Part shown: piece by piece, positions 980 through 28,042 of the stretch
Layout of the letters: the number at the start of each line of letters is the position of its first letter
Numbering within the stretch: the first letter of the stretch is position 1
Assembly (NCBI GenBank): GCA_016786485.1
Contig: JAEUWD010000067.1
Location: 1-36,260, forward strand
DNA: 36,260 bases
From: Bacteriovoracaceae bacterium
Lineage (GTDB): Bacteria > Bdellovibrionota > Bacteriovoracia > Bacteriovoracales > Bacteriovoracaceae
Reading direction: 5' to 3'
Program-made: the position numbers and the translations under genes
Notes under the pieces: model-generated
The model's input: the letters and a program-made list of their open reading frames with translations, nothing else
Databases searched by the model: none
Told to the model about the DNA's origin: nothing

Positions 980-1282
980 CTATCCTTTAAGTGTATTTGC
1001 TTTTTGAGTTTTTATAGAACCAAAATTTCGATAAAGATTAACTAAGATCGAAAGTCCAATCGCTGATTCAGCCGCTGCGATCGTGATGATAAAGAAAACC
1101 TGAATTTGACCTTCCACCATCCCTGCTGCTTTAGAAAAAGCCACAATGGAAAGATTGGCAGCATTCAACATTAATTCGATCCCCATCAGAATCATGATGG
1201 TGTCTCTTCGAAGAAGGACAATCAAAATCCCAACGGTGAAAAGAAAAGCTGCTAAAACTTGAACTAAAATTTCTTGTGTCAT
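980..1282 (-). CDS. nuoK: NADH-quinone oxidoreductase subunit K
   Basis: Small membrane subunit of complex I, 100 residues, the usual family length, with three transmembrane helices. Two acidic residues buried in helices and needed for proton transfer in the family are visible in MGIELMLNAANLS and AAAESAIGLSILV. The start is ATG at 1282 with AGGTAGGAAAT directly upstream. It lies nine bases downstream of nuoJ and just upstream of nuoL, so it is almost certainly co-transcribed and translationally linked. Confidence 0.96.
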   Translation of the reverse strand: MTQEILVQVLAAFLFTVGILIVLLRRDTIMILMGIELMLNAANLSIVAFSKAAGMVEGQIQVFFIITIAAAESAIGLSILVNLYRNFGSIKTQKANTLKG

Positions 1283-1291
1283 ATTTCCTAC

Positions 1292-1816
1292 CTAATCAAA
1301 TTTTCTTTTTGCTAAAACTACCGCACCAACCACGGCAACTAAAAGGGCCAACGAAATAACTTCGAATGAAATGTAAAACTGGCTAAAGAGTGAGTGCGCC
1401 AAAACTTTTGCGTTACCGCCTAGTTCTTCAACTTTCGCGTTAGTGAAAACACCAGAAGTTAATGAAGATGTATGTTTTGAGAAGTGCGTACAAACGGCGT
1501 AAGCTAACAAACTGAAAATGGTCGCACCTAAAGTCATACCAGCATAAAACATCTTTGGGTTATTTTTAAATTCTGATTCGGCATTACTTAAATTCAAAAG
1601 CATGATGGAAAAAACAAAAAGAACCATAATAGCACCGGCGTAAACGACGAGCTGAATGGTTGCCACTAAATGCTCGCCCATTAAGGCGTACATACCAGCT
1701 GACATTAATAAAATTCCAAGCAAACAAATGGCCGAAGTGATTGGGTTTTTAGCAAACAACATCATAACTGCGAGAATGGCACTGATGATGACCGCGATAA
1801 CTAGAGCAATATGCAT
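1292..1816 (-). CDS. nuoJ: NADH-quinone oxidoreductase subunit J
   Basis: Membrane subunit of complex I, 174 residues, with about five hydrophobic helices. The segment VYAGAIMVLFVFSIMLLNL is the conserved NuoJ helix (TM3, the one with the pi-bulge in solved structures). ATG at 1816 is preceded by a GAGG ribosome site. The position between nuoI and nuoK is canonical. The region between the conserved helix and the final helix is the variable periplasmic loop of the family. Nothing unusual is seen. Confidence 0.95.
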   Translation of the reverse strand: MHIALVIAVIISAILAVMMLFAKNPITSAICLLGILLMSAGMYALMGEHLVATIQLVVYAGAIMVLFVFSIMLLNLSNAESEFKNNPKMFYAGMTLGATIFSLLAYAVCTHFSKHTSSLTSGVFTNAKVEELGGNAKVLAHSLFSQFYISFEVISLALLVAVVGAVVLAKRKFD

Positions 1817-1820
1817 AAAA

Positions 1821-2321
1821 TTAACCTCTACCTTTTACATCACGCTTAAGAAAATCAAGATCGTAAATCGCATCATCGCGTGTCGTAACTGCTAATTCAT
1901 AATTGCGAGAAAGTTTAATCGCATCTTTTGGGCAAGCTTCTTCACAAAAGCCACAGAAACAGCAACGAAGAGCATCGATATCAAAGCTCAATGGTCGTTT
2001 TTCTTTTTTTACACCATCTGGGTTGTTATCCTCATCTCGTTCATCGGCGATAATGTGGATACATTCGGCCGGACAAACGGTCTGACATAAATAACAAGCG
2101 GTACAGTTTTCCGTTTTATTTTTATCGACCGAAATAAAGTGCATACCTCGGAAACGTTGTGAATAATCGCGTCTCTCTTCAGGATACTGAATTGTATTAT
2201 TTTTTCTTAAGAAAAAACCTTGTAGCAATCTTTTAAATGTTATCTTCATCCCAATAAAAATGGCCCAAAGATAAGTCTTTTGAGTTGCTGTGTATTTTCG
2301 AGAAATGTTAACTGTCCCCAT
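1821..2321 (-). CDS. nuoI: NADH-quinone oxidoreductase subunit I, 8Fe ferredoxin-type
   Basis: Peripheral-arm subunit carrying clusters N6a and N6b, which pass electrons towards NuoB. Two ferredoxin motifs are visible: CTACYLCQTVCP and CCFCGFCEEACP, each of the form CxxCxxCxxxCP. Each motif's last cysteine serves the other cluster. The length of 166 residues is normal. An amphipathic N-terminal segment (about residues 15-38) fits the membrane-associated helix of the family. ATG at 2321 follows AAGGTTAGAT. The gap to nuoH is 13 bases. Confidence 0.96.
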   Translation of the reverse strand: MGTVNISRKYTATQKTYLWAIFIGMKITFKRLLQGFFLRKNNTIQYPEERRDYSQRFRGMHFISVDKNKTENCTACYLCQTVCPAECIHIIADERDEDNNPDGVKKEKRPLSFDIDALRCCFCGFCEEACPKDAIKLSRNYELAVTTRDDAIYDLDFLKRDVKGRG

Positions 2322-2334
2322 ATCTAACCTTCTT

Positions 2335-3417
2335 TTAATTTAAGAAATAAACACCCAAAGTTACTAAAATTAAATTGATTAACGAAAGTGGGAATAAAAT
2401 TTTCCACCCCAAATCCATTAACTGATCAAATCTAAAACGCGGTAGCGTCCAACGAACCCATACGAAAACAAACATGAAAAATGAAACTTTAGAGAAGAAG
2501 CTAGTGAATTCTAACAACGCTTTCACGTTCTGAACTCCTGCTACACCTAAGCTAAAATACTCTGTGGCTAAATTAAGAATAGTTTGCATGCCTGGTAAAA
2601 AGCCATAACCACCAAAATAAATCGTTGAGATTAAACCTGAGGCCATAATCATCGCTACGTATTCGGCCATAAAGAAAGCCGCGAACTTCATACCGCCGTA
2701 CTCAAGGTGGTAACCCGCAACGATTTCTGATTCACCTTCTGGAAGATCGAAAGGTAAACGGTTGGTTTCGGCAAAAATAGCAATCCAGAAAACTAGCGCA
2801 CCTATCGGATTTACGAAAGCGCCCCAACGTGGAAGAAAACCAAAGATTGTTTCGTTTTGCCACGCCACCATTTCATGTGGATTGAAACTGCCGTAAACAA
2901 CTAACATCGAAAGTAGTGCTAATCCCATCGCGATTTCGTACGAAACAATTTGCGCTGAACCGCGAAGTGCACCAAGAACCGAATACTTATTATTTGAAGC
3001 CCAACCCGCGAGAATAATCGGATAAACTTCTAAACCTGCAAAGGCGAGAATAAAAATAACACCGGTATTCATATTGGCAATTTGTAGATTGACCGTGTGA
3101 TCACCTAGAACTAAGTAGCTTCCAAAAGGAATAACGGCCATAGCACAAAGTGGGGCCACGAGCGCTACAGTTGGTGCCATATGGTAGAAAAACTTATTAG
3201 CATTTTTTGGAACAAAGTCTTCTTTACAAACAAACTTAATAACATCAGCGGTGGTTTGCAGCAAACCAAACGGACCGATACGGTTTGGACCTACCCGCCC
3301 TTGCATCCAAGCCGAGCCTCGACGTTCAAACCAAACAAGGAATGGTATGACTCCCAATGATATTGCTATCACGAAGAGAATTTTTGCCATAACGGCGATT
3401 AAATCAAACATTTCCAT
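2335..3417 (-). CDS. nuoH: NADH-quinone oxidoreductase subunit H
   Basis: Membrane subunit that forms the quinone entry site at the junction with the peripheral arm. The 360-residue translation has about eight transmembrane helices and the signatures [15 protein letters not shown] and [15 protein letters not shown], the latter being the acidic cytoplasmic loop conserved from bacteria to mitochondrial ND1. The ATG at 3417 and a second in-frame ATG at 3411 are both possible; GTGGTG upstream is a mediocre ribosome site. It directly follows nuoG with a 9-base gap. Confidence 0.96.
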
Positions 3418-3426
3418 ATCACCACA

Positions 3427-4977
3427 CTATTTAAGCGATTTCCATGCACTTACAACACTCTTTACACTCAAACCATTTCCACGATGTACAATCGCTGGAG
3501 CAAATTTTTGAAGAATGCCATCTGTATTTTTAAAACTTCCAATTTTCTCAATTGTCGAAAGACCAGCAATCACACCTAAAATATTTTTTGACGGTAATGC
3601 TTTAATTTCTTCTTGAGTCCAAACACCCCAAAGAATTAATTTTTGGTCTGCTTTCATTTTTGGAATCCCAGCGCGACCACTTCTAAAAAGAATCGCTATC
3701 TCAGAACTTACTTCGCCATTCTTTAATGCTGTTAAGCCTGTTTCTTCCACACCTTTGGTGTTGGCCGTTTTATCTTTCATTCTCAAAAGATTATCGAGCT
3801 TTTGATCATCTTTTGAAGTCGTCACATTATTTGTGCCGTTATAGTACGAAAGACGAATATTCTTGATCACTTCAGGCATTTTCTCTTTTAAATAAGCTGC
3901 CTCTTCACAAGTCGCATCGGTTCCCACCACTAACTCCACTGAAGAAGCTGACTGAAGTTCTTTTGAAATTGATCCCAAAAGAGTTTCAATGCTCGTTGAG
4001 TGAAGCGCATCTTGATATTTCATTAAGGGAGAAATAATTCTTAATGGATTTGAAAGTGACTGATATGAACTGCGACCTTCATCACACATCCAGTGTTGAT
4101 TCACTTGTTCATTAAAGATAGGCATATAGCGATAAACCACATCTTTTTCCGAGTGAACTTCAATATTACAACCTTTTGAACAACGATCACAGATCGAAGC
4201 TTTCTTCTCAAGAAACCATACACGTTTTTCAAAACGGAAATCATTATAAGTTAATGCGCCAACTGGACAGAAGTCTGTTAGACAACCTTGATAGTCATTA
4301 AACAGACCACGCTCTTCATCCGCTGCCGCTAATTCTTTTTTATAACCACGGTTTAACATAACGAGGTCACTAGTTTTCGTGACATCATCAGTAAAACGTA
4401 CGCAACGTTCACAGTGAACACAACGATTCATATTCAGCGTTACTTTATCTGATAATTTTTTAGTCGTTGAATCTTCATAAACACGTTTTTCTTCTTTGAA
4501 GTTACTAGTCATTGGACCGTATTCAAAGTTGTAATCTTGCAACTCGCACTCACCGGCCTTATCACAAACTGGACAATCAAGGGGGTGGTTAGTTAATAAA
4601 AATTCCATAACACCAGTACGAGACTTCACAACTTTTTCTGAACGTGTGTGAACAACCATTCCATCTGCAGCTGGCGTTGAACAAGAAGTCATAAGCTTTG
4701 GAGCTTTCTCAACTTCTACGGTACACATACGACAGCTACCTGCGATCGGCATGCCTGGGTGGTAACAATAACGAGGAATTTCTTCGTGAATTTTATATCG
4801 CTCAGCTACTTGCATGATGGTATCGCCTGGAGCGAAGTCATAAACTTTTCCATCAATAGTAACTTTTGGATTTGGTTTTGCCGCTGGATCAGCACTCACC
4901 TGAACTGGTTTCTTAAATGAACTATAGTTCAAATCCACTTTTGGCATTTTAATTTCAATCTCAGTTGTATTAGACAT
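3427..4977 (-). CDS. nuoG: NADH-quinone oxidoreductase subunit G, short form
   Basis: Iron-sulfur subunit of the peripheral arm. Counting from the chosen start it has 516 residues, against roughly 780-910 in the long NuoG forms of Thermus and E. coli. Visible in order are a [2Fe-2S] ferredoxin domain ([12 protein letters not shown]), the HxxxCxxCxxxxxC cluster motif ([15 protein letters not shown]), a [4Fe-4S] motif ([10 protein letters not shown] with the later FCPVGAL) and the optional N7 motif C-x2-C-x3-C-x27-C (CDRCSKGC ... WMCDEGR). The C-terminal molybdopterin-type fold is shortened and degenerate. ATG at 4977 is chosen because AAGGAAAG precedes it and it overlaps the nuoF stop by eight bases; an upstream extension to 5058 in the same frame lies inside nuoF and looks unnatural. 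Confidence 0.94.
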
Positions 4978-6298
4978 GCGCGCTTTCCTTATGATCATGA
5001 GCGTGGCGGTGACCCGGACCTTTGTGCGGGCAACAACCTTGAGTAATATGATCTTCAAATTCTTTTCTAAATTTTTTCACAGATGAAAGAGCTGGACCAG
5101 TGACAGCATCAGCGAAAGCGCAAATCGTCTGTCCCGCCATGTTGCCACAAATTTTTGCAATATAGTCTAAGTCAGATTGTACACCCTTACCGTTTTCAAT
5201 TCGGTGGAACATACGAGCTAACCAGTGAGAACCTTCACGACATTGAGAACATTGACCACAAGATTCATGCTCATAAAATTTTAAAAGAACACTGGCGGCT
5301 TCCACGATACAGACTGATTCATCCATAACGATAACACCACCTGAACCGGCCATCGTGCCTGCTTTCGCTAAAGAATCGAAATCCATTTTGACATCGATTT
5401 CTTCCGCCGTAAGCATCGGAGCTGAAGCTCCACCTGGAATAACAGCTTTTAATTTTTTGCCATTTTTCATACCACCGGCCACTTCAATTAATTCACGCAT
5501 TGATAACAACATTGGTAGTTCATAGACACCTGGCTTGTTAACATGACCTGAAACACAGAATAAACGTGTTCCACCTGAACGTTCCGTTCCCATTTTGGCA
5601 AATTTCTCTGCACCTTCGTGAATAATATAAGGAACAGCGGCGAAAGTTTCTACGTTGTTTACACAACTAGGCATACCGTAAGCACCAACTTGCGCTGGGA
5701 ATGGTGGCTTCAAGCGTGGCTCACCTCTTTTACCTTCGAGTGAATTTAAAAGCGCTGTTTCTTCACCACAAATATAAGCGCCAGCTCCTTTATAAACCAC
5801 TAGATCGAAAGTGAAATTTGAACCTAAAATATTTTTTCCCAAGAAACCTTTTTTATAAGCTTCATCAATCGCTTTTTGTACGATGCGAGTTTCTTGATAG
5901 AACTCTCCACGAATATAAATAAAACCTTTATTTGAGCCAATAGCATGACCCGCAATAATCATCCCCTCGATCATTTTGTGAGGAGTTTTGGTCATAATTA
6001 AACGATCTTTAAATGTTCCTGGCTCACCTTCGTCAGCATTACAAACTAAGTACTTTGGCTTTGGATTACCTTTCGCATCGACTGGATTTGGTGGCATAAA
6101 TGACCACTTCATACCAGTTGGGAAACCTGCACCGCCACGACCACGAAGATTTGATTTTTTCACTTCGTCTACCACGGCTGCGGGAGTCATTGTTAAAGCT
6201 TTTTTCAAAGCTTCATAACCATGATCTTTTTGAATATAGAAATCAATTGTTTCACAATTTTTTTCATTCACATGTTTGGTAATAACTAAATCGCTCAC
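4970..6298 (-). CDS. nuoF: NADH-quinone oxidoreductase subunit F, FMN/NADH binding
   Basis: The subunit that oxidises NADH through FMN and passes electrons to the N3 [4Fe-4S] cluster. Visible motifs are the glycine-rich NADH/FMN region (LRGRGGAGFPTGMKW, YICGEETALL) and the N3 ligands SCGQCSQCREGSHW with a fourth cysteine in GQTICAFADA. Length is 442 residues. The start is taken as GTG at 6298, which overlaps the nuoE stop as GTGA and has AGGAG seven bases upstream; a GTG two codons earlier (6304) sits too close to that site. The C-terminus ends in a Cys/His-rich tail ([21 protein letters not shown] region, about 20 residues) not needed for the core fold. Confidence 0.96.
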   Translation of the reverse strand: MSDLVITKHVNEKNCETIDFYIQKDHGYEALKKALTMTPAAVVDEVKKSNLRGRGGAGFPTGMKWSFMPPNPVDAKGNPKPKYLVCNADEGEPGTFKDRLIMTKTPHKMIEGMIIAGHAIGSNKGFIYIRGEFYQETRIVQKAIDEAYKKGFLGKNILGSNFTFDLVVYKGAGAYICGEETALLNSLEGKRGEPRLKPPFPAQVGAYGMPSCVNNVETFAAVPYIIHEGAEKFAKMGTERSGGTRLFCVSGHVNKPGVYELPMLLSMRELIEVAGGMKNGKKLKAVIPGGASAPMLTAEEIDVKMDFDSLAKAGTMAGSGGVIVMDESVCIVEAASVLLKFYEHESCGQCSQCREGSHWLARMFHRIENGKGVQSDLDYIAKICGNMAGQTICAFADAVTGPALSSVKKFRKEFEDHITQGCCPHKGPGHRHAHDHKESAHV

Positions 6299-6822
6299 GG
6301 CCACACTCCTGGTTGATGAGTTGATTTACCAACCACTTTTCCTGCTGCTAATTCGCTATCAAATTGATCCAATAATTTATTCAATTGCGGAACGTCTAAA
6401 TTTTCATAATAGTCTTCGTTGACTTGTAGGACTGGCGCTGTTCCACATGAAGCCAAACACTCAGCTTCACTTAAGGTATATTTTCCATCTGCCGTTGTTT
6501 CACCACAGCCAATCTTCAAACGCTTTTCCATACAATGCAGGAGTTTTTCTGAACCATTTAACCAACAACTAATATTCACACAAAGTTGCAAGTTTACTTT
6601 TCCGACTGGTTCAAGTTTGAACATCGTATAGAAAGTCGCAACTTCTTTGACTTTAGCTAGAGGTAATTCCAAAAATTCAGCAGCATCCTTTAACGACTCT
6701 GGTGAAATCCAATTTTTATCTTGTTGAATTTCATGCAACAAAGGAATGAGGAGTGCTTGGGTCGTCGGAAATTGGTGACGAATCCCTTCAATTGTCTTTT
6801 TTACTTTTTCTGATATGGCCAT
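6295..6822 (-). CDS. nuoE: NADH-quinone oxidoreductase subunit E, [2Fe-2S] thioredoxin-like
   Basis: Carries the N1a [2Fe-2S] cluster next to FMN. The four ligands are visible as CVNISC and CLASC, in the thioredoxin-like C-terminal half; the N-terminal half is the helical bundle typical of the family. The length of 175 residues is normal. ATG at 6822 follows an AAGAGAG stretch 12 bases after the nuoD stop. The stop overlaps the nuoF start, indicating translational coupling of the two NADH-module proteins. Confidence 0.96.
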   Translation of the reverse strand: MAISEKVKKTIEGIRHQFPTTQALLIPLLHEIQQDKNWISPESLKDAAEFLELPLAKVKEVATFYTMFKLEPVGKVNLQLCVNISCWLNGSEKLLHCMEKRLKIGCGETTADGKYTLSEAECLASCGTAPVLQVNEDYYENLDVPQLNKLLDQFDSELAAGKVVGKSTHQPGVWP

Positions 6823-6834
6823 ATTTTTTCTCTC

Positions 6835-8028
6835 TTAACGATCTAGTTCGCCAGCAATAATATTAACGCTTCCTAAATGCGCGATTGCATCTGGAATTTT
6901 TCCACCTTTAATTGTTTTTTCGAAAACTTGAAAGTGTGTGAACGAAGGCGACTTCACGCGAATACGCCATGCTTTCGGTCCTCCACGACTTACAATATAG
7001 AAACCAACTTCACCGTTCGGGCCTTCAGTACAAGTGTAAGCCTCACCTTTAGGAACATCGATACCTTCCATAAAGATTTTAAAATGATGAATCAAAACTT
7101 CCATCTTAGTATAAACATCTAACTTATTTGGAATAAGAACACGCTTATCATCAACCCATAATGGGCCATTTGGCATTTTTTCATTACATTGTTTTAAGAT
7201 ACGAACTGATTGGCGCATTTCTTCCATACGAACCAAGTAACGATCATAAACGTCACCACCGGAACCTACGACAACATCGAAATCCAATTCAGGGTAGATA
7301 TAATAAGGACGATCGCGACGTAAATCCATATCAATCCCAGAAGCACGAGCACATGGGCCAGTCACAGAAAATTGAGCGCAATCTTCTTTCGTAATAACTC
7401 CAACATTTTTGGTTCTATCGATCCAAATGCGGTTACCAGTTAAAAGGCCTTCAATTTCATCAATCGCTTTTGGAATTTCGTCACAAAACTTTTTTAATCT
7501 TTGGGCAAAACCGTCTGGTAAATCATAACTCATGCCACCGATACGAGCATAAGTTGTCGTCAGTCGCATCCCACACATTGATTCAATCATGGTGTAAGCT
7601 TCTTCACGCCAGTGAATTAATAAGAAGAAAACAGTCATAGCACCCAAGTCGAGCGCGTTGGCAGCGATACAAACAATGTGATCGATAATACGCGACAATT
7701 CCATGCACACGACACGAATATACATACATCTATCCGTCGGTGAAATTTTCATCAGATTTTCAACCGTCATCGCGTAAGTAATATTGTTATTTAAAGCTGA
7801 ACAATAATTTAAGCGGTCAGTATAAACCATCCACTGGTGGTAAGTTTTTTCTTCGCCCAATTTTTCAATCGCGCGGTGAAGATAACCAATTTCACAATTG
7901 GCATCTTCGATCACTTCACCGTTGATACGACACATAACTCGTAAGGTTCCATGAGTCGCTGGGTGATTAGGACCAATATTAATGAGGACATTTGGGTTAT
8001 AAAGATCTTGTTGTTGATTTTCCATCAT
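6835..8028 (-). CDS. nuoD: NADH-quinone oxidoreductase subunit D
   Basis: The 49-kDa-type subunit, related to [NiFe]-hydrogenase large subunits, that builds the quinone site with NuoB. The signature GPNHPATHGTLR near the N-terminus and the C-terminal segment IAHLGSVNIIAGELDR are diagnostic. The length of 397 residues is typical of the separate (not NuoCD-fused) form. Two adjacent ATG codons (8028 and 8025) follow AGGAATT. nuoC ends five bases upstream. Confidence 0.97.
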   Translation of the reverse strand: MMENQQQDLYNPNVLINIGPNHPATHGTLRVMCRINGEVIEDANCEIGYLHRAIEKLGEEKTYHQWMVYTDRLNYCSALNNNITYAMTVENLMKISPTDRCMYIRVVCMELSRIIDHIVCIAANALDLGAMTVFFLLIHWREEAYTMIESMCGMRLTTTYARIGGMSYDLPDGFAQRLKKFCDEIPKAIDEIEGLLTGNRIWIDRTKNVGVITKEDCAQFSVTGPCARASGIDMDLRRDRPYYIYPELDFDVVVGSGGDVYDRYLVRMEEMRQSVRILKQCNEKMPNGPLWVDDKRVLIPNKLDVYTKMEVLIHHFKIFMEGIDVPKGEAYTCTEGPNGEVGFYIVSRGGPKAWRIRVKSPSFTHFQVFEKTIKGGKIPDAIAHLGSVNIIAGELDR

Positions 8029-8033
8029 AATTC

Positions 8034-8591
8034 CTACTTGTCCTCGTTAGCACCTAGGTGCAGACGAATATTATCTTTAAATGGTTCACGTTGTTTCATT
8101 GGATATTCTTTACGCAGAGGATGACCCGTAAATCTCTCATCCATCATAATACGGCGAAGATTTGGGTGACCTTTGAAATCAATTCCAAACATGTCGTAAA
8201 CTTCTCGCTCTAACCAATTGGCACCAGCAAAAAGATCAACAATGGTTAAAGCCGATTCATTTTCATCAAGCAAACACTTTAAACGAATGCGAGTATGAAA
8301 AGTGCGAGAGAAAAGTTGATAAACGAGAACAAAACGTTTATCACCATCTTCCCCATCTTTATTGTCATAAGCTGTTAGGTCAGATAAAAAATCCATTTGA
8401 ATATTTTTATCAGTCATGAAGTCTTTCACACATCTTTTTGCATCAGCTGGATCTTTGGCCCATACAATAACTTCTTCAAAGTTATCGAGTTCAATTTTAC
8501 GGCCAGTACCAAATTGTGTTTTGAGATATTCTGTTAATGCCATTTGAGTTGCTAAGTATTTTGCGTTTGGTGAAACTGAACTTGTTTTCAT
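8034..8591 (-). CDS. nuoC: NADH-quinone oxidoreductase subunit C
   Basis: The 30-kDa-type subunit of the peripheral arm, 185 residues. The conserved family signature is visible near the C-terminus: [20 protein letters not shown] followed by GHPLRKEYP. It is a separate gene here, unlike the NuoCD fusion of E. coli. ATG at 8591 overlaps the nuoB stop as ATGA, so translation is probably coupled. Confidence 0.96.
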
Positions 8592-9187
8592 TTTTCACCT
8601 CTTAAATTTTTTTGTTCATTCACATATTCAGGTGTGATAATGAAATTGGCCTTCACACCATCAACACTCTTGCGATACGACATCGCGTTTTGTGAATCTT
8701 CAAACGTTGGCTTCTCAGCCGGCTTTCTCTCTAAACTTTTATCGATTTGTTTTTGTAAATGCAAAATAGCGTGAATCAAACCTTCTGGAATAGGTGGGCA
8801 ACCTGGAACATAAACATCCACAGGCATAATTTCATCAATCCCTTGGAGGACTGAGTATGTATCAAAGATACCACCCGAAGAAGAACAAGCTCCCATGGCA
8901 ATAACCCATTTAGGTTCTAACATTTGATCATAAATCGTACGAAGAACTGGCGCCATTTTTGTGGTGATAGTTCCGGCCACAATCAACAAATCGGCCTGGC
9001 GTGGAGAGAAGCGTACAACTTCAGCACCGAAACGGGCCAAGTCATATGTACTTGAAATGGTCGACATCATTTCGATACCACAACAAGAGGTACCAAAGGT
9101 CATTGGCCACAGAGAATTTTTCTGCGCCCACTTCGCTGTTTCTTCCAGCATCGTTGTAAAAAAGAATGAACTACCGTCCTTACCCAT
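8588..9187 (-). CDS. nuoB: NADH-quinone oxidoreductase subunit B
   Basis: The PSST-type subunit holding cluster N2, the electron donor to quinone. The N2 ligands are visible: tandem cysteines in [11 protein letters not shown], one in [12 protein letters not shown] and one in [11 protein letters not shown]. The length of 199 residues includes a C-terminal extension beyond the catalytic fold. ATG at 9187 has an excellent AAAGGAGC site. Nine bases separate it from nuoA. Confidence 0.97.
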
Positions 9188-9196
9188 AAAGCTCCT

Positions 9197-9586
9197 TTAG
9201 TCCCAACGTAAAGCGCCACGGAGACGCAAATACAAATAACCACCCAATAGCAACATAAAAAATAATCCCATTTCTAAAAGGATGATCGGACCTTGAGTTA
9301 AGTAATGCTTATAAACCAATGTCCATGGATACATGAACACGACTTCAACATCGAAAATAAGAAAAATAATTCCCACCAGATAGTAACGAACAGAAAATTG
9401 TTGGTGGGCATTGCCTTCGTAACCAACACCACATTCGTAGGTGTCATATTTTTTTGGCGTGATTTCAGTTATTTTTTTTCCTAAAAGCTTATTAACCGAA
9501 ACAACAATACCGGCAATCGTAACTGCCAGAGCAATTAAAATAATTATAGCTAAGTAATCTATCGATCCTTCGATTGGGAGTGACAT
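9197..9586 (-). CDS. nuoA: NADH-quinone oxidoreductase subunit A
   Basis: Membrane subunit of complex I at the quinone-site junction, 129 residues with three hydrophobic helices. YECGVGYEG (the flexible loop with its conserved cysteine) and FDVEVVFMYPW are the family signatures. ATG at 9586 follows AAAGGGGAAAT. It is the first gene of the nuo operon. The 93 bases between it and the upstream transporter gene contain no clear terminator and no convincing promoter, so the operon start is unresolved. Confidence 0.96.
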   Translation of the reverse strand: MSLPIEGSIDYLAIIILIALAVTIAGIVVSVNKLLGKKITEITPKKYDTYECGVGYEGNAHQQFSVRYYLVGIIFLIFDVEVVFMYPWTLVYKHYLTQGPIILLEMGLFFMLLLGGYLYLRLRGALRWD

Positions 9587-12339: not shown

Positions 12340-13302
12340 CTAGCGGTTTATCAATGACTGAACAAGTAAAAGTAAAAGCGCGAATAAATAAAACGAAATA
12401 AGATAAATTAAGGCTTTGCGATCTAAAGCGATAACTTTTTTAAGATAGTCCTCACCTTTATCCATTATCCAGGAACCGTAAACAACGATCGCTAAGCCGA
12501 TAACAATAAAAATGTAAGTCAGAATATAAATCTTATCCATCAAAACGAGATAATCAATTTCGGGCAATTCATCATTCAATGTGATCTGGAGCGCCACAAT
12601 GGTTAGTAGTGATGTAATACCAATTCCCACTCGAGCATCGACGTAAGTCGGGCGAAATAAAAACATTAAGCAAGTACTAAAAACCACACATAAAATGGGT
12701 AGAATTAATTTCACCATATAAGTAATAATAGGACGTTTGATTGGAACTTTAACTTTGACTCGAGTGAAAACTGAATGCTGATCCTTTTCACGAATATCAC
12801 CAAAATCAGTGGCATGAGTTTGCTTCACGACTTCGAGTTCCGGACTACCCAGGATGAAACCTGGAAATTTTATTTCAGGATTCATCTTGATATTTTCGGC
12901 CGTATCAATTTCAAATGTGTGGCTTTCAATTGAATCCAAGGGTTCAAACTCAACTGTTAAGTACTGAGTATCAAAAGGATAATTTTTTAAATCAAATTTG
13001 TGAGTGAAACCACCTATCACACGTATCACCTGATAATAATCACCATTCGGTAAGCGAATTGGTTCTTCATATGATTTAGTCGTGGTGTGGCCCCAAAGTT
13101 CAAATGGGTTCATAAATTCAAAATTCACAGATGGATCAATGGCTTTATCTTGCCATTTAAACCAAAGATAAAAATCAACTTTGTAGCTATGAGAACTGAG
13201 TTCCATATTATGAATGTCATTGATGTATGCGCCTACTTTTACAGTCGAGGCAGCATTCACGTAAGATGTTAAGAAAAAGAGAAAAAGAAAAAATTTAATC
13301 AT
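12340..13302 (-). CDS. Prokaryotic pentameric ligand-gated ion channel (Cys-loop superfamily)
   Basis: A 320-residue homologue of GLIC/ELIC, bacterial relatives of nicotinic and GABA-A receptors. Residues 1-18 are a signal peptide (ending VNAAS). Residues 20-188 form the beta-rich extracellular ligand domain with the Pro-loop signature NYPFDTQYLTVEFE, lacking the two cysteines, as in other bacterial members. Four helices follow: M1 191-216, pore-lining M2 222-244, M3 251-279 and M4 297-318. M1 begins after a conserved KRPIITY. The M3-M4 loop is short, as in bacteria. Aligned by hand to GLIC, M2 has Asp at -2', Thr at 6' and Leu at 9', suggesting a cation pore. ATG at 13302 (AGGAA eight bases before) overlaps the upstream stop by eight bases; a TTG at 13308 is less likely. 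Confidence 0.9.
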   Translation of the reverse strand: MIKFFLFLFFLTSYVNAASTVKVGAYINDIHNMELSSHSYKVDFYLWFKWQDKAIDPSVNFEFMNPFELWGHTTTKSYEEPIRLPNGDYYQVIRVIGGFTHKFDLKNYPFDTQYLTVEFEPLDSIESHTFEIDTAENIKMNPEIKFPGFILGSPELEVVKQTHATDFGDIREKDQHSVFTRVKVKVPIKRPIITYMVKLILPILCVVFSTCLMFLFRPTYVDARVGIGITSLLTIVALQITLNDELPEIDYLVLMDKIYILTYIFIVIGLAIVVYGSWIMDKGEDYLKKVIALDRKALIYLISFYLFALLLLLVQSLINR

Positions 13303-14440
13303 GTTCAATATTCCTAAAAAATGCCCTATTTAAAGTGATCATTTGTATACATGTAAAAACCCCAAATGCCACGAGATCTCTCAGGACATGAAAAACGCTA
13401 CGATTATTTTTCCAATGAGTTAACTTTACTTCTTCCAACTCTTGTTCAAAAACATTATTCACTTCGCTTAACATTTGATTGACGATAAATGGTTCCCTCG
13501 ACGTAATATTCATTTCAACATTGCTCATGGTACTTACATAATCAATATTGTAAGAGCCAATGGTACACCAACTTGAATCGATAAGGGCAATCTTGGCATG
13601 GAGAACTGACGATTGCCATTCATAGATTTTAACGCCGGCCGAAAGTAAATCCTCGTATAGACAGTTGGTTGACCACTTTACTAATGGAACATCTGAAATT
13701 TTTCCTAGAACCAGTTTAACTTCGACACCTTCACGTGCCTTTCTTTTTAAAGTTTTAAGAAATTTACGGCCAGGAAAAAAATAAGCATTCATAATAATAA
13801 TTGATTTCTGGGCAGATTTAATCTGAGAACTGTAAAGATGAGAAATACCAAATTGCCCTTTCCAGAAATCTTGCATGTAAACATTGGCCTTACCAATAAC
13901 TTCAAGCTGATTTTGCCTAACCTCGATTTCAACCACCCTTTTCTCGTGGTAACGAATCGCATTTAATGCAATCTGGGAAACAATCTCGCCTCTTAGATAG
14001 ATAACATAATCTAACCACACCGGCTCATTCCTGTGCTGCAAATACTCATCCGAAATATTAATTCCGCCAATAAAGGCACGATACTGATCGAAAATAAAAA
14101 TCTTCTGGTGTAATCTTCTACCGAGAGGAACGGAAAACGAGCTGAAAAGTGGATTGAAAAATGAAAGCTGTATACCGGCTTTTTTTATTTCGGTGATCGT
14201 TGCATCCTCAATGTCCCAAGAACCTATCGAATCCAGAAGCAAATGCACACACACGCCTCTCTCAACAGCTTGAATAAGTTTTTTGAGAATAGCTTGGCCG
14301 GATTCATCGTTTTTAAATGTATAGACGTTGATTATAATTTGAAATTTTGCACATTCAATTTGCTGAATTAATTTTTCTAAATAGAATCCACCACCCCGAA
14401 TAATTTTAGCGTTTTCGAAATTATATCCCTCAAGATTCAA
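13295..14440 (-). CDS. Phospholipase D-superfamily enzyme, cardiolipin synthase (ClsB-like)
   Basis: A member of the PLD superfamily with two complete HKD motifs: LHQKIFIFD and LHAKIALID, at about residues 111-118 and 280-288 from the chosen start. Each is followed by the usual GSYN/GGIN glycine turn, so a phosphatidyl-transferase or phosphodiesterase reaction is expected. Absence of N-terminal membrane helices and the C-terminal FHVLRDLVAF segment resemble ClsB (YbhO). The preceding gene is an EEP-family protein, as ybhP precedes clsB in E. coli. The TTG at 14440 has GAGG six bases upstream; a GTG at 14452 is the alternative. Both starts overlap the upstream gene, and the stop overlaps the ion-channel start. 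Confidence 0.85.
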   Translation of the reverse strand: MNLEGYNFENAKIIRGGGFYLEKLIQQIECAKFQIIINVYTFKNDESGQAILKKLIQAVERGVCVHLLLDSIGSWDIEDATITEIKKAGIQLSFFNPLFSSFSVPLGRRLHQKIFIFDQYRAFIGGINISDEYLQHRNEPVWLDYVIYLRGEIVSQIALNAIRYHEKRVVEIEVRQNQLEVIGKANVYMQDFWKGQFGISHLYSSQIKSAQKSIIIMNAYFFPGRKFLKTLKRKAREGVEVKLVLGKISDVPLVKWSTNCLYEDLLSAGVKIYEWQSSVLHAKIALIDSSWCTIGSYNIDYVSTMSNVEMNITSREPFIVNQMLSEVNNVFEQELEEVKLTHWKNNRSVFHVLRDLVAFGVFTCIQMITLNRAFFRNIEHD

Positions 14441-15152
14441 TACTAACCTCACATAGTAATGGTAAGTGATCTGAATATGTATATTTCATGGTGGCGGCAG
14501 ATAGAGTAATACCATTTTTAATGTAAACTCTATCTAACTTCAGGCTTGGATAAAAAGAGGGGAAAGTTTTTAAATATTCTCCATTTATTATTGCCGAGCA
14601 ATCTTTTACGTTCAAAGCATTTTCAATCATATTTCCAATACGATGATCCCAATCATTAAAATCTCCCGCAATAATAAAAGCATCATCTCCAACTTCAGAT
14701 TTTATACGCTCAATAATTCGCTCGATTTGCTGCTTTCGACCTTTAAAAAGGAGATCGAGGTGAAGGCAATAGAGATGTATTGGAATTTTCTTAGCTGAGT
14801 TCTGAGGTTCAATTTTTGCATACAATAACCCTCGTTGCTCAAAACGATTGGTTGAGAGATTTTCTTGCTCCCACTTTACCAAGGGAAACTTACTCAAAAT
14901 GACGTTCCCATGATGACCCTTTTCATAAACTGCATTTTTTCCGTAGGCAAATTCAGTCCAAATTTCGTCGGCCAATTCTTCATAGTGAGGCTTTGAGATA
15001 TTTCTGTTAGAATTCTCACCTACGACTTCTTGCAAAAAAACAATATCTGCATTTGATTCAATGATGATTTTTTTAATTTTGTCAGATGTATCATCGACAA
15101 ACTTCCAACTGCGGGACTTATTAACGTTATAACTAAGGATTTTGATTTTCAC
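14430..15152 (-). CDS. Endonuclease/exonuclease/phosphatase-family protein (YbhP-like)
   Basis: A 240-residue Mg2+-dependent phosphodiesterase fold (EEP superfamily, with members acting on DNA, phospholipids or inositol phosphates). All catalytic motifs are visible: LSYNV (N9), LQEV (E42), LHLD (H131), GDFND (D164, N166), LDRVY (D207) and SDHLP (D228, H229). There is no signal peptide. Its coupling to the cardiolipin-synthase-like gene points to a role in lipid metabolism rather than DNA repair, by analogy with YbhP. The start is GTG at 15152 with no Shine-Dalgarno; a TATAAT box lies only 18 bases upstream, so the leader is very short. Confidence 0.87.
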   Translation of the reverse strand: MKIKILSYNVNKSRSWKFVDDTSDKIKKIIIESNADIVFLQEVVGENSNRNISKPHYEELADEIWTEFAYGKNAVYEKGHHGNVILSKFPLVKWEQENLSTNRFEQRGLLYAKIEPQNSAKKIPIHLYCLHLDLLFKGRKQQIERIIERIKSEVGDDAFIIAGDFNDWDHRIGNMIENALNVKDCSAIINGEYLKTFPSFYPSLKLDRVYIKNGITLSAATMKYTYSDHLPLLCEVSIES

Positions 15153-15983: not shown

Positions 15984-17780
15984 TTACTGTATCCGTTGCT
16001 GTGATTCTTCATTATTTGCGTCATCGAGCAAAACCTGTGCCAATTGTGCAGTTCCCTGGTGGGCGACACTGACAAAAGTCTTATCATCATCACGAACTTT
16101 ATATTGTTCCAGCAGCATTTCTTCATCATGGGTATGAAATCGCTTGATAATTTTATTCGCTTTATCAGCGCCGTAACCCATGTCTAAGAGCAAATCGCGC
16201 ACAAAATTCATGCTCGAATCAATCGTCTCACGTTTGATTAAATGAATATCAAGATCCATTAACTCAAAAGCATGACCACGATTACGTGCACGAGCAAAAA
16301 CTTTTAAATGCGGAAAGTGACTACGAACAACTTTCGCTGTTTTGAGCGAAGTCTCCATATCATCGACAGCTAAAATAAAATATTTTGCTTTGCTAGCACC
16401 GGCCATTTCCAACAAATCTGAACGACTAGCATCACCGTAATAAACTTTATTTCCAAATTTTCTGAGCAATTCAATTTGGGCCGCATCGTGATCGATGGCC
16501 ACAAAAGGAATTTGTTGTGCTCTCAAAATCCGTCCGAAAATTTGACCAAAACGTCCAAAACCCGCAATGATAACTTGTGCTGATTCATCATCAATTTGGT
16601 CATACTTGGGTTCCGTTTTATCGTTTTCATTTTTACATTTCGTGTATTTTTCATTCAGCATGATGAAGATTGGATTAACGGCCATAGATAAAGTGATTAT
16701 AACTGTGAGGTAAGCCAGACTTGAGGCCGGCACCACCGATAGGCCAGTTAATAAACCAAAGATAACAAATGCAAATTCTCCACCCTGCGAAGTATAAAGC
16801 GCTGTCAGTTTTGCAGACTGATGATCTTTTTTTGATAATTTTGCGACAGCGTAAATAATTGCGGCCTTAATAAACAAATACAAAACGGCAAACATCAAAA
16901 GTTTATGCGGTTTGTGGAAAACAATGTCGAGATCAACCCCCATTCCTACCGCAATAAAAAATAAACCCATAAATAATCCTTTAAAAGGATCAATATTGGT
17001 TTCAAGTTCGTGTCGATATTCAGAATCGGCCAACATAACACCTGCGAGAAAAGCTCCTAGTGCTGATGATAAACCAATTTCTTGCATGAGTGCGGCAACT
17101 CCAACCACGATGAACAAAGTCGCTGCGGTGAAAACTTCGCGTGAACGAGTTTCAGCAATCAGTCTGAAAACGGGACCTAATAAATAACGACTTGCAAGCA
17201 CCACACCAAGAATAACTAAAATAACTACCCACCAACTCGTATGAGAACCGTGAGCATTTGCTACATTCGAGCTTAACAAGACCGGAATCATCGCTAAGGC
17301 CGGAATGGCAAAAAGATCTTGGGCGAGCAAAATCGAAAAAGAAGTACGACCAAAATCTGTCTGAAAAAGATTTTTATCCAACATAGTTTGAATCGAAAAA
17401 GCGGTAGATGATAAAGAAAGAGCAAAGCCAATTACAATTGAAACGGGCAAAGCTAAACCACTCAAATAACAGATAGTGGAAAAAACAGCGGCACAGGCCA
17501 CGACTTGAAAACCACCTAGCAAAATGAGATCTCTTCGCATCGACCAAAGTCTGCGTGGCTGAATTTCTAAACCAATAACGAAAAGAAGAAAGATAACGCC
17601 GAATTCTGAAAAGTGTGTGACGTTCTCAGCATCATGAATCAGCTCCAGGCCGTAAGGCCCCACAATCACACCCGCCATCAAATATCCCAACACTGAACCA
17701 AAACCTAGTCGCTTAAAAATGGGAACGAATACCATCGCTGAGATCATAAAAACGAGAGCTTGTTTCATAAACATGGTCAT
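15984..17780 (-). CDS. Kef-type K+/H+ antiporter (CPA2 with RCK domain)
   Basis: A 598-residue inner-membrane protein. Residues 1-385 hold about twelve helices with the CPA2 signatures LLLFVIGLEI-like FLLFVIGLEIQ, LLAQDLFAIP and DPFKGLFMGLFFIAVGM. Residues about 400-520 are a cytosolic RCK/TrkA-N nucleotide-binding domain with GFGRFGQIFG and the acidic VAIDHD strand end. Length and order match KefB/KefC, which release K+ in response to glutathione adducts. No KefF or KefG quinone-reductase partner gene is adjacent. ATG at 17780 is chosen because AAAGGA precedes it by seven bases within the end of the upstream gene; in-frame ATGs at 17774 and 17768 are possible. Confidence 0.93.
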   Translation of the reverse strand: MTMFMKQALVFMISAMVFVPIFKRLGFGSVLGYLMAGVIVGPYGLELIHDAENVTHFSEFGVIFLLFVIGLEIQPRRLWSMRRDLILLGGFQVVACAAVFSTICYLSGLALPVSIVIGFALSLSSTAFSIQTMLDKNLFQTDFGRTSFSILLAQDLFAIPALAMIPVLLSSNVANAHGSHTSWWVVILVILGVVLASRYLLGPVFRLIAETRSREVFTAATLFIVVGVAALMQEIGLSSALGAFLAGVMLADSEYRHELETNIDPFKGLFMGLFFIAVGMGVDLDIVFHKPHKLLMFAVLYLFIKAAIIYAVAKLSKKDHQSAKLTALYTSQGGEFAFVIFGLLTGLSVVPASSLAYLTVIITLSMAVNPIFIMLNEKYTKCKNENDKTEPKYDQIDDESAQVIIAGFGRFGQIFGRILRAQQIPFVAIDHDAAQIELLRKFGNKVYYGDASRSDLLEMAGASKAKYFILAVDDMETSLKTAKVVRSHFPHLKVFARARNRGHAFELMDLDIHLIKRETIDSSMNFVRDLLLDMGYGADKANKIIKRFHTHDEEMLLEQYKVRDDDKTFVSVAHQGTAQLAQVLLDDANNEESQQRIQ

Positions 17781-23465: not shown

Positions 23466-23644
23466 AAAAAACTCCGTTTTTTTCAGACTAAATTATGCAA
23501 CATTTCTGAGGCATCGCCTAACCTAAAATATATGAATGAACCAGAGGCTAACTTATTGATTTCACTAGGCATGACCATTTTCATTTTTTTTAATGCCACG
23601 AACGAAAGGATAATAAAAATAAGCATTTAACCGATAGGATGGTT

Positions 23645-26600
23645 ATGAAATCATTAAACATACTCTTTTTCTTGTTTTTAGTTGCCTGTGTACCACAACC
23701 TCAAGAAGGCGGGTTGTTAGGTGATTTGAACAACGAAGACGAACAAAACCAAACTGAAACACCGGCGAATGTACTGCCACAAGTTTCACTTGGATCTGAC
23801 CTATCGATAACTCTTCCAACTAACGCCATTAATATCCAAGCATCAGCTGCTGACCAAGATGGAAGTATTAGTTCATTTGCTTGGGAAAAAATAAGTGGCG
23901 CAAATGCGACACTGGTTGGATCACAATCTGACTTATTACAACTTTCAAATTTACAAGAAGGCACATATCAATTTCGCTTAACAGTAACTGACAATGTGGG
24001 TGACAGCGCGAGTGATATCATTCAAGTGGTAGTAAACCCAGCGCCAGTTGTTCCAGTCAATCAAGCTCCTACGGTTAATGCAGGGATTGATCAAGAGATT
24101 ACTCTCCCAACAAATACAGCTACTTTTTCAGCTAGTGCTCAAGACAGTGATGGAAGTATTGCAAGTTATACTTGGAGTAAAATTTCTGGACCAAACGTTA
24201 CGCTAGCAGGTGTTAACACTTTAAATCTCAGCGCTTCAAATTTACTTGAAGGAACTTATGTTTTTCGAGTAACAGTAAAAGATAATCAAAATGCTTCAGC
24301 ATTAGATGACGTACAAATTGTCGTGAAGCCAAAACCAAATGTCGCTCCTACGATTGCAGCGATTGCTGATATTAAATTAACTCTGCCAACTAACTCAACT
24401 ACTATAACCGCAGTTGCGACGGATAGTGATGGTTCGATTGCAAGTTATAGTTGGAATAAAAAAACCGGTGGGGCCGCTACTCTCGCGAATGCTAACACTA
24501 GCAATTTAAATCTAAGTGCTTTAGTCAGCGGAAATTATGAATTTGAATTAACTGTATTAGATAATCAAGGTGCTTCGGCCAGTGTGATTGCTAAAATTTT
24601 TGTGAACGCAGCTCCAACAGTAAGTGCGGGAGCCGACAAAGAAATTACACTACCAACCAATACACTGACTTTAGCCGCTTCAGCTTCCGACAGTGATGGG
24701 ACAATTAGCTCTTACCTTTGGGAAAAAAATTCAGGCCCTGCTGCAACACTTGCAAATACAACTACCAGCACGCTTAATCTGAGCTCCTTAGTAGAAGGAA
24801 CTTACATTTTTAAAGTGACAGTGAAAGATAATCAAAATGCTGCTGCTTCTGACGAAGTTCAAGTGGTAGTAAAACCAAAACCGAATACAGCTCCTGTGGC
24901 CAATGCAGGCAACGATCAAACTATTCAATTACCAATTAGTACTGTTTCACTCTCAGGCACCGCCAGCGATGCTGAAAATCAAAGCTTAACTTATCTATGG
25001 ACAAAAAAGAGCGGCCCTACTGCTACCATTTCGAATACAAATACTTTAGCAACCAATGTGACTTCATTAGTTGAAGGAACTTATGTTTTTAATTTAAAAG
25101 TAACTGATACTTCAGGTGGAACACATAATGATGATATTCAAGTTGTGGTCCAAGCTACGGCCAGTACAGATAAGCCAACGCTAACAATGTTTCATCAAGT
25201 TTGTTCACCTAGTTGCTTAAACTACTGGGTTTCATTACCAAAAGATTATTATACTGCGACTGCTGGTACCAAGTTTCCAGTCATTATGTTCTTGCACGGA
25301 CATGGTGAACGTGGAGATGGAAGTAATACAACAGCTAATCAAAATCTGATTGCGGCCCACGGTCCTTTTAAATATATCAAGGCAGGAACTTGGCCACAAA
25401 ATTACAAATTTATTGTTGTCGCTCCACAGCTACCAACCTCACAAAACGGTTTTGATTGGACTGACCCATCGAAAGATCCAGACTTTCAAAACTGGACAGA
25501 AAAAGTTATCACTCATGCACTTGCAACATTTCCTAAAGCCGATGATACACGACTCTACGTAACTGGACTTTCAATGGGCGGCGAAGGTTCAACTCGCTTA
25601 ATGGTTCGATATCCAAGTCGTTACGCTGCAGCCGTTATTGCTTCAGGCAGATATGATCTTGGGCTTGATGCCTGTGTTGCAAAAAATCAAGGCATGTGGT
25701 TTTTCCATGGTGATCAAGATAATGGGGCCGACAATAACTACTCACAAGGTTTGGCCGCTGTTACAAAATTTAATAATTGTCATACCTCAAGCAGTAACCA
25801 TATGGCAGGGATGACGACACTGGTTGGTGATGGTCATAGCGGAACAGCTTGGGGAAAAGTTTATGGCAGCTTCGGTACACAACACAGTGGAACTAATATT
25901 TATGATTGGTTATTACTTAATACCAAAACGACAAAAGTAAAGCCTCCAGTGATTGCGGCTTCTGTCCCTCCGACCGTTATTAATGGTGGCATCGAAGCTA
26001 ATACTCCACCAACAATTAGCAAAGTTCATAACGTTTTTATGGATAATGGTACAACTAAATTTGTTAAAATTGATTATCAAGATGATGATGACGATCAAAT
26101 TGTTCTTAAATTTATACAAACACTTCCTAGTTTTGCATTTATTGAAGATGAAGATAATAATTCAATGACATTAAGAATTGAGCCAAATGCCAATGCTGGA
26201 TACAACAAACGTTTTGACATTGAAGCTAGGGATATTTCGGCTGCGGGCAAAGAAAATTTTTATATTCGAGTTAGAGATCCATCTATTCGCTTAAGTGACA
26301 ATGCACTCGCTGGCCTTGCCGGTAAACAAACTGAACGTGCTTTAGGTTCGACAGCGGCCAAATATGGGTTCTATGAATATGTTCCTCGTGATGTCGCCAA
26401 TACAAATCATGCTCTTTATAAAAAGTGGCCGGTTATTTTATTTCTGCATGGTATGGGTGAACGATCTAATGGTGGTTCAACACCGTTAAGTCGAGTCATT
26501 GCACATGGACCTAGTAAACTCATCGCTGCGGGTAAACACTTTGATGCATTTGTCTTCTCACCACAAGCTAATTACTCATGGGATAATAATGCTGTCGATG

Positions 26601-28042
26601 AATTTGTTGATCATATATTTTCAGTTTATGGCCACCATATTGATAGAACCCGTTTTTATGTAACTGGACTTAGTATGGGCGGTGGTGGAACTTTTAACTA
26701 CGCCGGACTGAGACCTGATAGAGTCGCTGCGATTGTTCCTATTTGTGGTGTTGGTTCTGATTTAGGTTATGAGATGGCCAACACACCGATTTGGGCCTTT
26801 ACTAATAAAGATGACGGTACTGTTGGTCGAGGTAGTACCGAAGGTGTTTTTAGAGATGCCACAAACTTTCACTCTGGAGGATTATGGTCTCAGTGGCCTT
26901 ACGGTGGTGGCGGTCCAAGTAACGCGACCAGTATGCCTTTTGCAACCACTGCGGTTAACGCCAGAGGTGTTAGTACAAGTACTGGTTGGACTAACTCATG
27001 GGTATGGACTGATGGTTTTTCTAATAGCAACGTCGGTATTCATAAATATACTATTTATAATGCTTCTGGACACGATTCATGGACAAAAACCTACAACGAT
27101 TCTGTGAACTCGCAAACGATTGGTGTTTACAATTGGATGTTTGCACAAAAATTAGTCGAGCATGATTTAAAAATTACACAAATAACTTTCAGTCAAATTC
27201 AACATCACCAAAACGAAGCCCCTCAAGTTCGTTTTGAAGTCAAAGTCACAGGTAAAAATGCCATTGGAGGAGTATTTGCTCACCTAAATAATTTTGGAGG
27301 CTCTAGTAAATATAATCTTAAGATGACATCGATCGGAAATGATCGCTATGAATTAGTTTACAATATGCCAAGTAATTTGAGTCTAGGTAAACGTGAGATA
27401 TACTTCATGGCCATCGACAACCAAAAAAATGTAAAAGTTGAAAAAAGACCATACGCTATCTTAAACCCTAACTACGCTACAGCGGTTGGCGCGAATGAAT
27501 TAAATTACAAAGTAAAAATTAATTTTGGTGAAGCATCTAATGCTAATGACACCTGGAATACCACGATGTTTGCCCCGACTCCAGGTATGGTTTACCCATC
27601 GCTTTTAACTGAAGATAAGCGCAATAGTAAAATCACCATGCTGGCAGGGACCAACTGGTCTGGAGCTAACAACTGGGGTGGACATGATGTTGGGACTACC
27701 TCACATGACTATCAAGCTGTGATAACTCGCTCTCACTGGAGTGTTTATAAAAATACCGCAACACTTTACTTTCATGGGTTAAATCCAAGCTTAAAATATA
27801 GTTTTAAGTTTTTTGCTAGTACCAAAGATACGACTAGTCGACCTTGTTACTTTAAAATTGGATCAAATGAGGTTTCATTAGAAGCAAAAGCTAATGCTAC
27901 AAATACTGTAAGTTTGTTAAATGTTACACCAGACGCAAATGGTATGGTGGAAGTAAAAATAAGAAATCACGATAGCGCCAATAGTAGTTCAACATTTCAC
28001 TACGCACATATTAATGCGATTGAAATTTCGCCTACAAATTAA
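23645..28042 (+). CDS. Giant lipoprotein with PKD/REJ-like repeats and two esterase domains
   Basis: A 1465-residue surface or periplasmic lipoprotein. The signal peptide ends in a lipobox LVAC with lipidated C15. Residues about 45-503 are five repeats of a PKD/REJ-like Ig fold, each with LPTN, DSDGSI-x-SY-x-W and EGTY-x-F-x-VTV-x-DNQ. Residues 510-760 form a serine alpha/beta hydrolase (GLSMGGEG with S643, D690 or D692, H731). Residues 785-880 are a beta-rich linker. A second hydrolase spans about 890-1170 (GLSMGGGG with S1010, D1056/D1057, H1143). A beta-sandwich C-terminal region follows. Both hydrolases resemble PHB-depolymerase/feruloyl-esterase-type enzymes. The ATG at 23645 is preferred over 23639 because AGGA then has proper spacing. 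Confidence 0.9.
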   Translation: MKSLNILFFLFLVACVPQPQEGGLLGDLNNEDEQNQTETPANVLPQVSLGSDLSITLPTNAINIQASAADQDGSISSFAWEKISGANATLVGSQSDLLQLSNLQEGTYQFRLTVTDNVGDSASDIIQVVVNPAPVVPVNQAPTVNAGIDQEITLPTNTATFSASAQDSDGSIASYTWSKISGPNVTLAGVNTLNLSASNLLEGTYVFRVTVKDNQNASALDDVQIVVKPKPNVAPTIAAIADIKLTLPTNSTTITAVATDSDGSIASYSWNKKTGGAATLANANTSNLNLSALVSGNYEFELTVLDNQGASASVIAKIFVNAAPTVSAGADKEITLPTNTLTLAASASDSDGTISSYLWEKNSGPAATLANTTTSTLNLSSLVEGTYIFKVTVKDNQNAAASDEVQVVVKPKPNTAPVANAGNDQTIQLPISTVSLSGTASDAENQSLTYLWTKKSGPTATISNTNTLATNVTSLVEGTYVFNLKVTDTSGGTHNDDIQVVVQATASTDKPTLTMFHQVCSPSCLNYWVSLPKDYYTATAGTKFPVIMFLHGHGERGDGSNTTANQNLIAAHGPFKYIKAGTWPQNYKFIVVAPQLPTSQNGFDWTDPSKDPDFQNWTEKVITHALATFPKADDTRLYVTGLSMGGEGSTRLMVRYPSRYAAAVIASGRYDLGLDACVAKNQGMWFFHGDQDNGADNNYSQGLAAVTKFNNCHTSSSNHMAGMTTLVGDGHSGTAWGKVYGSFGTQHSGTNIYDWLLLNTKTTKVKPPVIAASVPPTVINGGIEANTPPTISKVHNVFMDNGTTKFVKIDYQDDDDDQIVLKFIQTLPSFAFIEDEDNNSMTLRIEPNANAGYNKRFDIEARDISAAGKENFYIRVRDPSIRLSDNALAGLAGKQTERALGSTAAKYGFYEYVPRDVANTNHALYKKWPVILFLHGMGERSNGGSTPLSRVIAHGPSKLIAAGKHFDAFVFSPQANYSWDNNAVDEFVDHIFSVYGHHIDRTRFYVTGLSMGGGGTFNYAGLRPDRVAAIVPICGVGSDLGYEMANTPIWAFTNKDDGTVGRGSTEGVFRDATNFHSGGLWSQWPYGGGGPSNATSMPFATTAVNARGVSTSTGWTNSWVWTDGFSNSNVGIHKYTIYNASGHDSWTKTYNDSVNSQTIGVYNWMFAQKLVEHDLKITQITFSQIQHHQNEAPQVRFEVKVTGKNAIGGVFAHLNNFGGSSKYNLKMTSIGNDRYELVYNMPSNLSLGKREIYFMAIDNQKNVKVEKRPYAILNPNYATAVGANELNYKVKINFGEASNANDTWNTTMFAPTPGMVYPSLLTEDKRNSKITMLAGTNWSGANNWGGHDVGTTSHDYQAVITRSHWSVYKNTATLYFHGLNPSLKYSFKFFASTKDTTSRPCYFKIGSNEVSLEAKANATNTVSLLNVTPDANGMVEVKIRNHDSANSSSTFHYAHINAIEISPTN

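Follow-up and report, generated by a model that had tools for sequence, protein, structure and literature searches.

Locus and gene content

The window, meaning the whole stretch of 36,260 nucleotides analyzed from a Bacteriovoracaceae contig, carries at 12340..13302 on the minus strand an open reading frame of 320 amino acids that is assigned to the pentameric ligand-gated ion channels (pLGICs) by homology and predicted fold. An earlier note on this DNA had described a complete channel frame with a signal peptide, a Pro-loop and four helices at this position; the coordinates are right and each element is recovered below. The frame opens with an ATG at 13302, 9 nt downstream of an AGGA motif (13312..13315, minus strand) read from the sequence as the probable ribosome-binding site. 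An in-frame TTG at 13308 is a possible alternative start, yet lies too near the AGGA motif. All features of the protein given below by coordinates are likewise on the minus strand. Residues 1-17 (13252..13302) read as a signal peptide with a predicted cut between MIKFFLFLFFLTSYVNA and the following AS; the model has a low-confidence helix at this N-terminus, and the family alignment begins at about residue 19.

Upstream, a gene for a two-domain PLD/ClsB-like cardiolipin synthase (13295..14452, minus strand) overlaps the start of the channel gene by 8 nt and is itself overlapped by 23 nt by a gene of the endonuclease/exonuclease/phosphatase (EEP) family (14430..15152, minus strand). The channel gene is probably co-transcribed with these two. 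The EEP and ClsB-like pair (13295-15152, minus strand) resembles E. coli ybhP-clsB, with the channel gene as a third member. Elsewhere in the window lie a nuo (complex I) cluster (980-9586) and a gene of the Na+/H+-exchanger type (15984-17780). The plus strand also encodes a 1467-aa secreted-looking protein with at least five PKD-type domains and alpha/beta-hydrolase (esterase-like) matches (23639-28042) and a ceramidase-family membrane protein (28697-29398; Pfam E 3e-18), a family met more often in eukaryotes.

Homology and predicted fold

Sequence comparison leads to pLGICs only, namely chains with ELIC, GLIC, GABA-A or glycine receptor (GlyR) domains. Matches by phmmer to ELIC/GLIC/GABA-A chimera chains reach 1.2e-18, a profile built from 21 family members matches GLIC chains at 4e-37, and homologues with 24-53% identity are present in many other genomes. 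Similarity of this degree lies well outside what chance would produce. The NCBIfam LIC match (1.7e-20) falls under the LIC cut-off. The two Pfam channel domains proposed as a check in the earlier note both match, and both do so marginally, below their gathering cut-offs: Neur_chan_LBD scores 24.3 bits against 26 (E 2.4e-5) and Neur_chan_memb 20.4 bits against 28.1 (E 7e-4). These scores reflect the sensitivity limit of the models and not another fold. Threshold-based annotation would therefore miss the protein, and since Neur_chan_LBD matches 8 and Neur_chan_memb 12 of 23 relatives at a threshold of E 1e-3, the branch is easily overlooked by routine annotation. A PF02931 search of the source genome returned no match and missed the channel gene itself, so that it has no bearing on the presence of other copies.

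The Pro-loop region FDLKNYPFDTQYL has no flanking cysteines, which places the protein outside the Cys-loop receptors in the strict sense. These cysteines are likewise missing in other prokaryotic pLGICs. The superfamily signature listed in Table 1 of PMC4795631, consisting of an [F/Y]PxD loop, a pre-M1 arginine, prolines in M1 and between M2 and M3 and a beta-9 aromatic, is otherwise present in full as Y108, P109, F110 and D111 (YPFD, 12970..12981), R190 (12733..12735), P202, P247 and F149. In the family alignment P109, D111, R190, P202 and P247 are near-invariant, R190 being invariant. The pre-M1 arginine is salt-bridged to the Pro-loop aspartate in known structures described in PMC4795631, a pair that corresponds here to R190 and D111.

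An AlphaFold2 model computed for a single chain on the family alignment has a mean pLDDT of 88.9 and a pTM of 0.79. It consists of a beta-sandwich, taken as the extracellular (periplasmic) domain (residues 18-190, 12733..13251), followed by the predicted helices M1 (192-215, 12658..12729, kinked at P202), M2 (221-243, 12574..12642, lining the putative pore), M3 (254-280, 12463..12543) and, after a very short linker, M4 (286-319, 12346..12447). The beta-sandwich plus four-helix fold, which the earlier note had named as the structural check, is thus present in the model. Foldseek places GLIC entries first among PDB matches (E 7.5e-23), and VIA-align, with a fold match over model residues 14-319, gives Z-scores of 25.6 for GluCl (287 residues, rmsd 2.2), 25.1 for GlyR and about 24.7 for GLIC (282 aligned residues, rmsd 2.3), scores that are tied for this predicted structure. 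The animal glycine receptor and GluCl share the fold and differ from the window protein in their Cys-loop cysteines, long M3-M4 loop and proline at -2'. Membership in the pLGIC fold is near certain; the assignment to the superfamily is in itself ordinary.

A clade of short-form channels

The protein was compared with about 65 relatives, among them 54 short-form proteins and nine further long-form relatives. Between beta-2 and a point just past loop A, GLIC and ELIC have 50-54 residues, the window protein has 34 and the 54 short forms have 29-40, with one at 51 by way of an unrelated insert. All short-form proteins lack the W-x-P motif at the aligned position of loop A, the WxP half amounting to 16-20 residues in GLIC and ELIC; in the window protein the site of the absent segment is at residues 51-60 (13123..13152). 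The nine other relatives, recovered by the same searches, have segments of 43-46 residues and carry W-x-P. One candidate carrier, L024, was rejected, its SWSP being unrelated and located in a 34-residue segment. In a maximum-likelihood tree computed without the trait columns and without E120, short and long forms are split at 98-99/95 (bootstrap/SH-aLRT), which corresponds to one change on the tree.

Short-form members occur in the phylum of the window, Planctomycetota, Bacteroidota, Chlorobiota, Gammaproteobacteria and several archaeal lineages. The window protein is one of seven or eight members of a clade (100/99) drawn from its own family, from a second family within its phylum and from Planctomycetota, and among sampled genomes the channel is found in 9 of 369 from its phylum, 26 of 294 from Planctomycetota and 24 of 296 from the phylum of L012. 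Mixed taxa within one clade together with sparse presence suggest horizontal transfer and frequent loss of the gene. Structure-chain searches with the family profile and four members found no solved structure inside the clade. Over the channel domain the best match was 4e-37 with the profile, single members gave either about 1e-17 or no match, and DeCLIC was not among the matches listed. Two pLGIC inventories, in the portions available, make no mention of the missing WxP segment, and a literature search found no paper linking pLGICs with Bdellovibrio-like bacteria.

Some prokaryotic pLGICs are fused to PBP or MCP-N/Cache sensor domains, according to Tasneem et al. (PMC549065). Some short-form relatives have such fusions around the shared channel core, whereas the window protein is a bare core with no extra domain and no adjoining sensor gene. 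In one of them (L065:1486-3396, minus strand) an NMT1/TAXI-type TRAP solute-binding domain is fused to the N-terminus of the channel, a possible clue to ligand delivery in that branch. Another belongs to a set of three tandem pLGIC-like genes (L030:5640-10831, plus strand), the first of which encodes 705 aa with a dCache sensor domain; the gene pair recurs at L028:7087-8876, and such tandem genes make heteropentamers possible. Proteins of 718 and 722 aa (L056:938-3094 and L095:115-2283, both plus strand) contain divergent pLGIC-like sequence close to their C-termini, the former returning no Pfam match, and frames of 721-740 aa resembling them are present in several genomes. Most positive genomes have one pLGIC match, while G461, from the phylum of L011, has seven, some in frames of 630-700 aa.

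The putative ligand pocket

In ELIC, the amino group of the agonist adjoins Glu77 and Glu131, and alanine mutants of the principal-face pocket, including these two, give no response (PMC3119659). The equivalent residues in the window protein are E62 in loop A (13117..13119) and E120 in loop B (12943..12945). The former position is acidic in 54 of 56 short-form rows and the latter is glutamate in all 56, and of the nine further long-form relatives not one carries both. GLIC has Ile at the second position and, at the first, the carboxylate-binding Arg77. Of 164 extracellular-domain columns, only 4 reach 80% acidic residues across the short-form clade, and two of them are this pair; the chance of such a coincidence is about 4e-4 by a naive estimate that takes no account of common descent. 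Residue equivalences are taken from one MAFFT alignment, with E120, unlike the residues of loop C, also placed by an independent pairwise alignment, and the ELIC sequence used is PDB chain 2yn6, full length and without substitution.

Aromatic residues are kept at the positions of ELIC F19, Y38 and F188, with conservation across the short-form rows of 91% for Y26, 100% (as an aromatic) for Y45 and 93% for F179 (12766..12768; F or Y in 52 of 56). Two further motifs of this face are conserved in the subgroup of the window protein. FE[FM]xN..[ED].W follows loop A and reads FEFMN..E.W here, ending in W70 (13093..13095; W in 24 of 27), and [TS][DN]FG[DE] forms part of loop C, where it reads TDFGD (residues 165-169, 12796..12810). 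The alignment of loop C is uncertain, which makes the equivalences of F167 and F179 weaker than those of E62 and E120. Chains that contain ELIC extracellular domains are the best phmmer matches of the protein, and ELIC shares with it the fold, the EFxN and E-x-EP motifs containing both acids, and the aromatics F19, Y38 and F188. ELIC differs in its WxP half of loop A (54 against 34 residues), in Phe133, Arg91 and Asn103, which are replaced by L122, E80 and V92, in an acid at -1' of M2 instead of -2', and in its place among the long forms of the tree.

The earlier note had missed both the acid pair and the absent WxP half. Of the two ligand candidates it put forward, small amines gain from these features and pH loses. 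By analogy with ELIC the ligand may be amine-like, a proposal that we hold to be about evenly balanced; against an amine pocket of this kind stands the missing half of loop A, which normally shapes the pocket.

Ion selectivity and alternative explanations

A multiple alignment that includes GLIC reproduces the ungapped M2 register of the earlier note, with D222 at -2' (12637..12639), G226 at 2', T230 at 6', L233 at 9', A237 at 13' and D244 at 20'. D222 thereby supplies the acidic ring at -1' or -2' that marks cation-selective pLGICs, and GLIC likewise has an acid at -2' and an M2 of equal length. An acid stands at -2' in 40 of the 53 tallied short-form rows and in all 23 intact members of the subgroup, a count that excludes a G005 protein (L034:5519-6403, minus strand) with a run of N within M1-M2 at residues ~198-212. 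On this pattern the channel is quite likely cation-selective, as the earlier note had predicted from the acid. The remainder of the M2 start resembles GlyR: in the cytoplasmic half (ARVGIGIT..LT), DARVGIGITSLLT is identical to GlyR PARVGLGITTVLT at 9 of 13 positions, A-1' and R0' included, and to GLIC at 3 of 13, so that cation selectivity depends on one residue. An anion channel whose GlyR-like M2 start passes chloride in spite of the -2' aspartate is nevertheless improbable, because the proline that GlyR has at -2' is an acid here and throughout the intact subgroup, and because GLIC, with glutamate at -2', is cation-selective (PMC5760087). The three overlapping genes of the same direction could also be read as a phospholipid gene set in which the channel senses or answers membrane lipids. 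This reading is the least probable of those considered here, since G009, a 53%-identical relative, has its ClsB-like gene on another contig, and in the close relatives G050 and G005 the channel gene comes after a DEAD-box helicase gene. That helicase is the sole recurrent neighbour in a clustering of 29 loci, by which a conserved operon was rejected. The gene arrangement was not found in relatives, and the neighbourhood therefore identifies no partner; no clue to the ligand was found at these 29 loci.

A cation channel could also be opened by signals other than an amine. For gating by periplasmic pH as in GLIC, with H38 as sensor, it can be argued that H38 occupies the position of E35, the key proton sensor of GLIC (PMC5760087), that histidine is found there in 8 of 8 proteins of the window protein's clade and 13 of 27 of its subgroup, and that equivalents of GLIC D122 and E222 are retained. 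Most of the GLIC sensor set is lost, however, with E26, E35, E222, H235, E243 and H277 corresponding to D29, H38, D222, I235, N243 and S277; most subgroup members have N in place of E26, GLIC D32 is replaced by L, and the E35H substitution in GLIC itself reduced proton sensitivity (PMC5760087). GLIC also has WxP, is about 19% identical and carries Arg77 where the window protein has E62, and proton gating would leave the conserved acid pair unexplained. It is accordingly considered unlikely. Slightly less likely again is a metal site, in which the acid pair together with the acidic loop C would take up a divalent ion, for instance Ca2+, that inhibits or gates the channel. E62, E120 and TDFGD are all acidic, and PMC9897478 describes inhibition by calcium as widespread in the family and DeCLIC as opening when calcium is depleted; yet the ELIC residues aligned with the two acids coordinate an amine, and the conserved aromatics round the site fit an organic cation.

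Proposed mechanism and significance

The reading preferred here, and on balance a fairly probable one by analogy with ELIC and GLIC, is a homopentamer that is probably selective for cations and opens on binding a small, positively charged ligand resembling an amine. The gene product would be the subunit of a ligand-gated channel of the inner membrane, with its N-terminal domain exported to the periplasm, where it would fold as the pLGIC beta-sandwich, and with four helices following, of which M2 would line the pore. A small cation, which most probably carries an amine group of primary or simple type, would dock between subunits, gripped on the principal face by E62 from the leftover half of loop A and by E120 from loop B, and enclosed by W70, F167 and F179 on that face and by Y26, Y45 and W47 on the complementary one. 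Binding is expected to shift loop C (TDFGD) and the contact of the Pro-loop, pre-M1 and M2-M3 regions (D111-R190, P109, P247), opening the pore. Five D222 side chains at -2' would favour cations, so that opening would depolarize the cell.

According to a 2016 inventory (PMC4795631), no microbial pLGIC had been studied in vivo. The interest of the short-form branch is that it is widespread, has no structure as far as tested, lacks half of loop A and has an amine-type acid pair. It may form a coherent and structurally unexplored branch of pLGICs that combines the loss of the WxP half with an ELIC-type double-carboxylate amine pocket, in which case the sensing of amines would be the most common mode of prokaryotic pLGICs, or their ancestral one, a proposal we offer tentatively and rate somewhat below an even chance. 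The family-wide acid pair, which matches the amine-holding residues of ELIC, yields a direct prediction that two point mutations would probe and that covers an entire branch of channels in bacteria and archaea. Loop A is a standard part of the neurotransmitter site, and this branch shows that half of it is dispensable; a short-form structure would reveal how small the ligand-binding domain can be in this superfamily. The gene described here encodes a relative of the channels that carry signals between human nerve cells.
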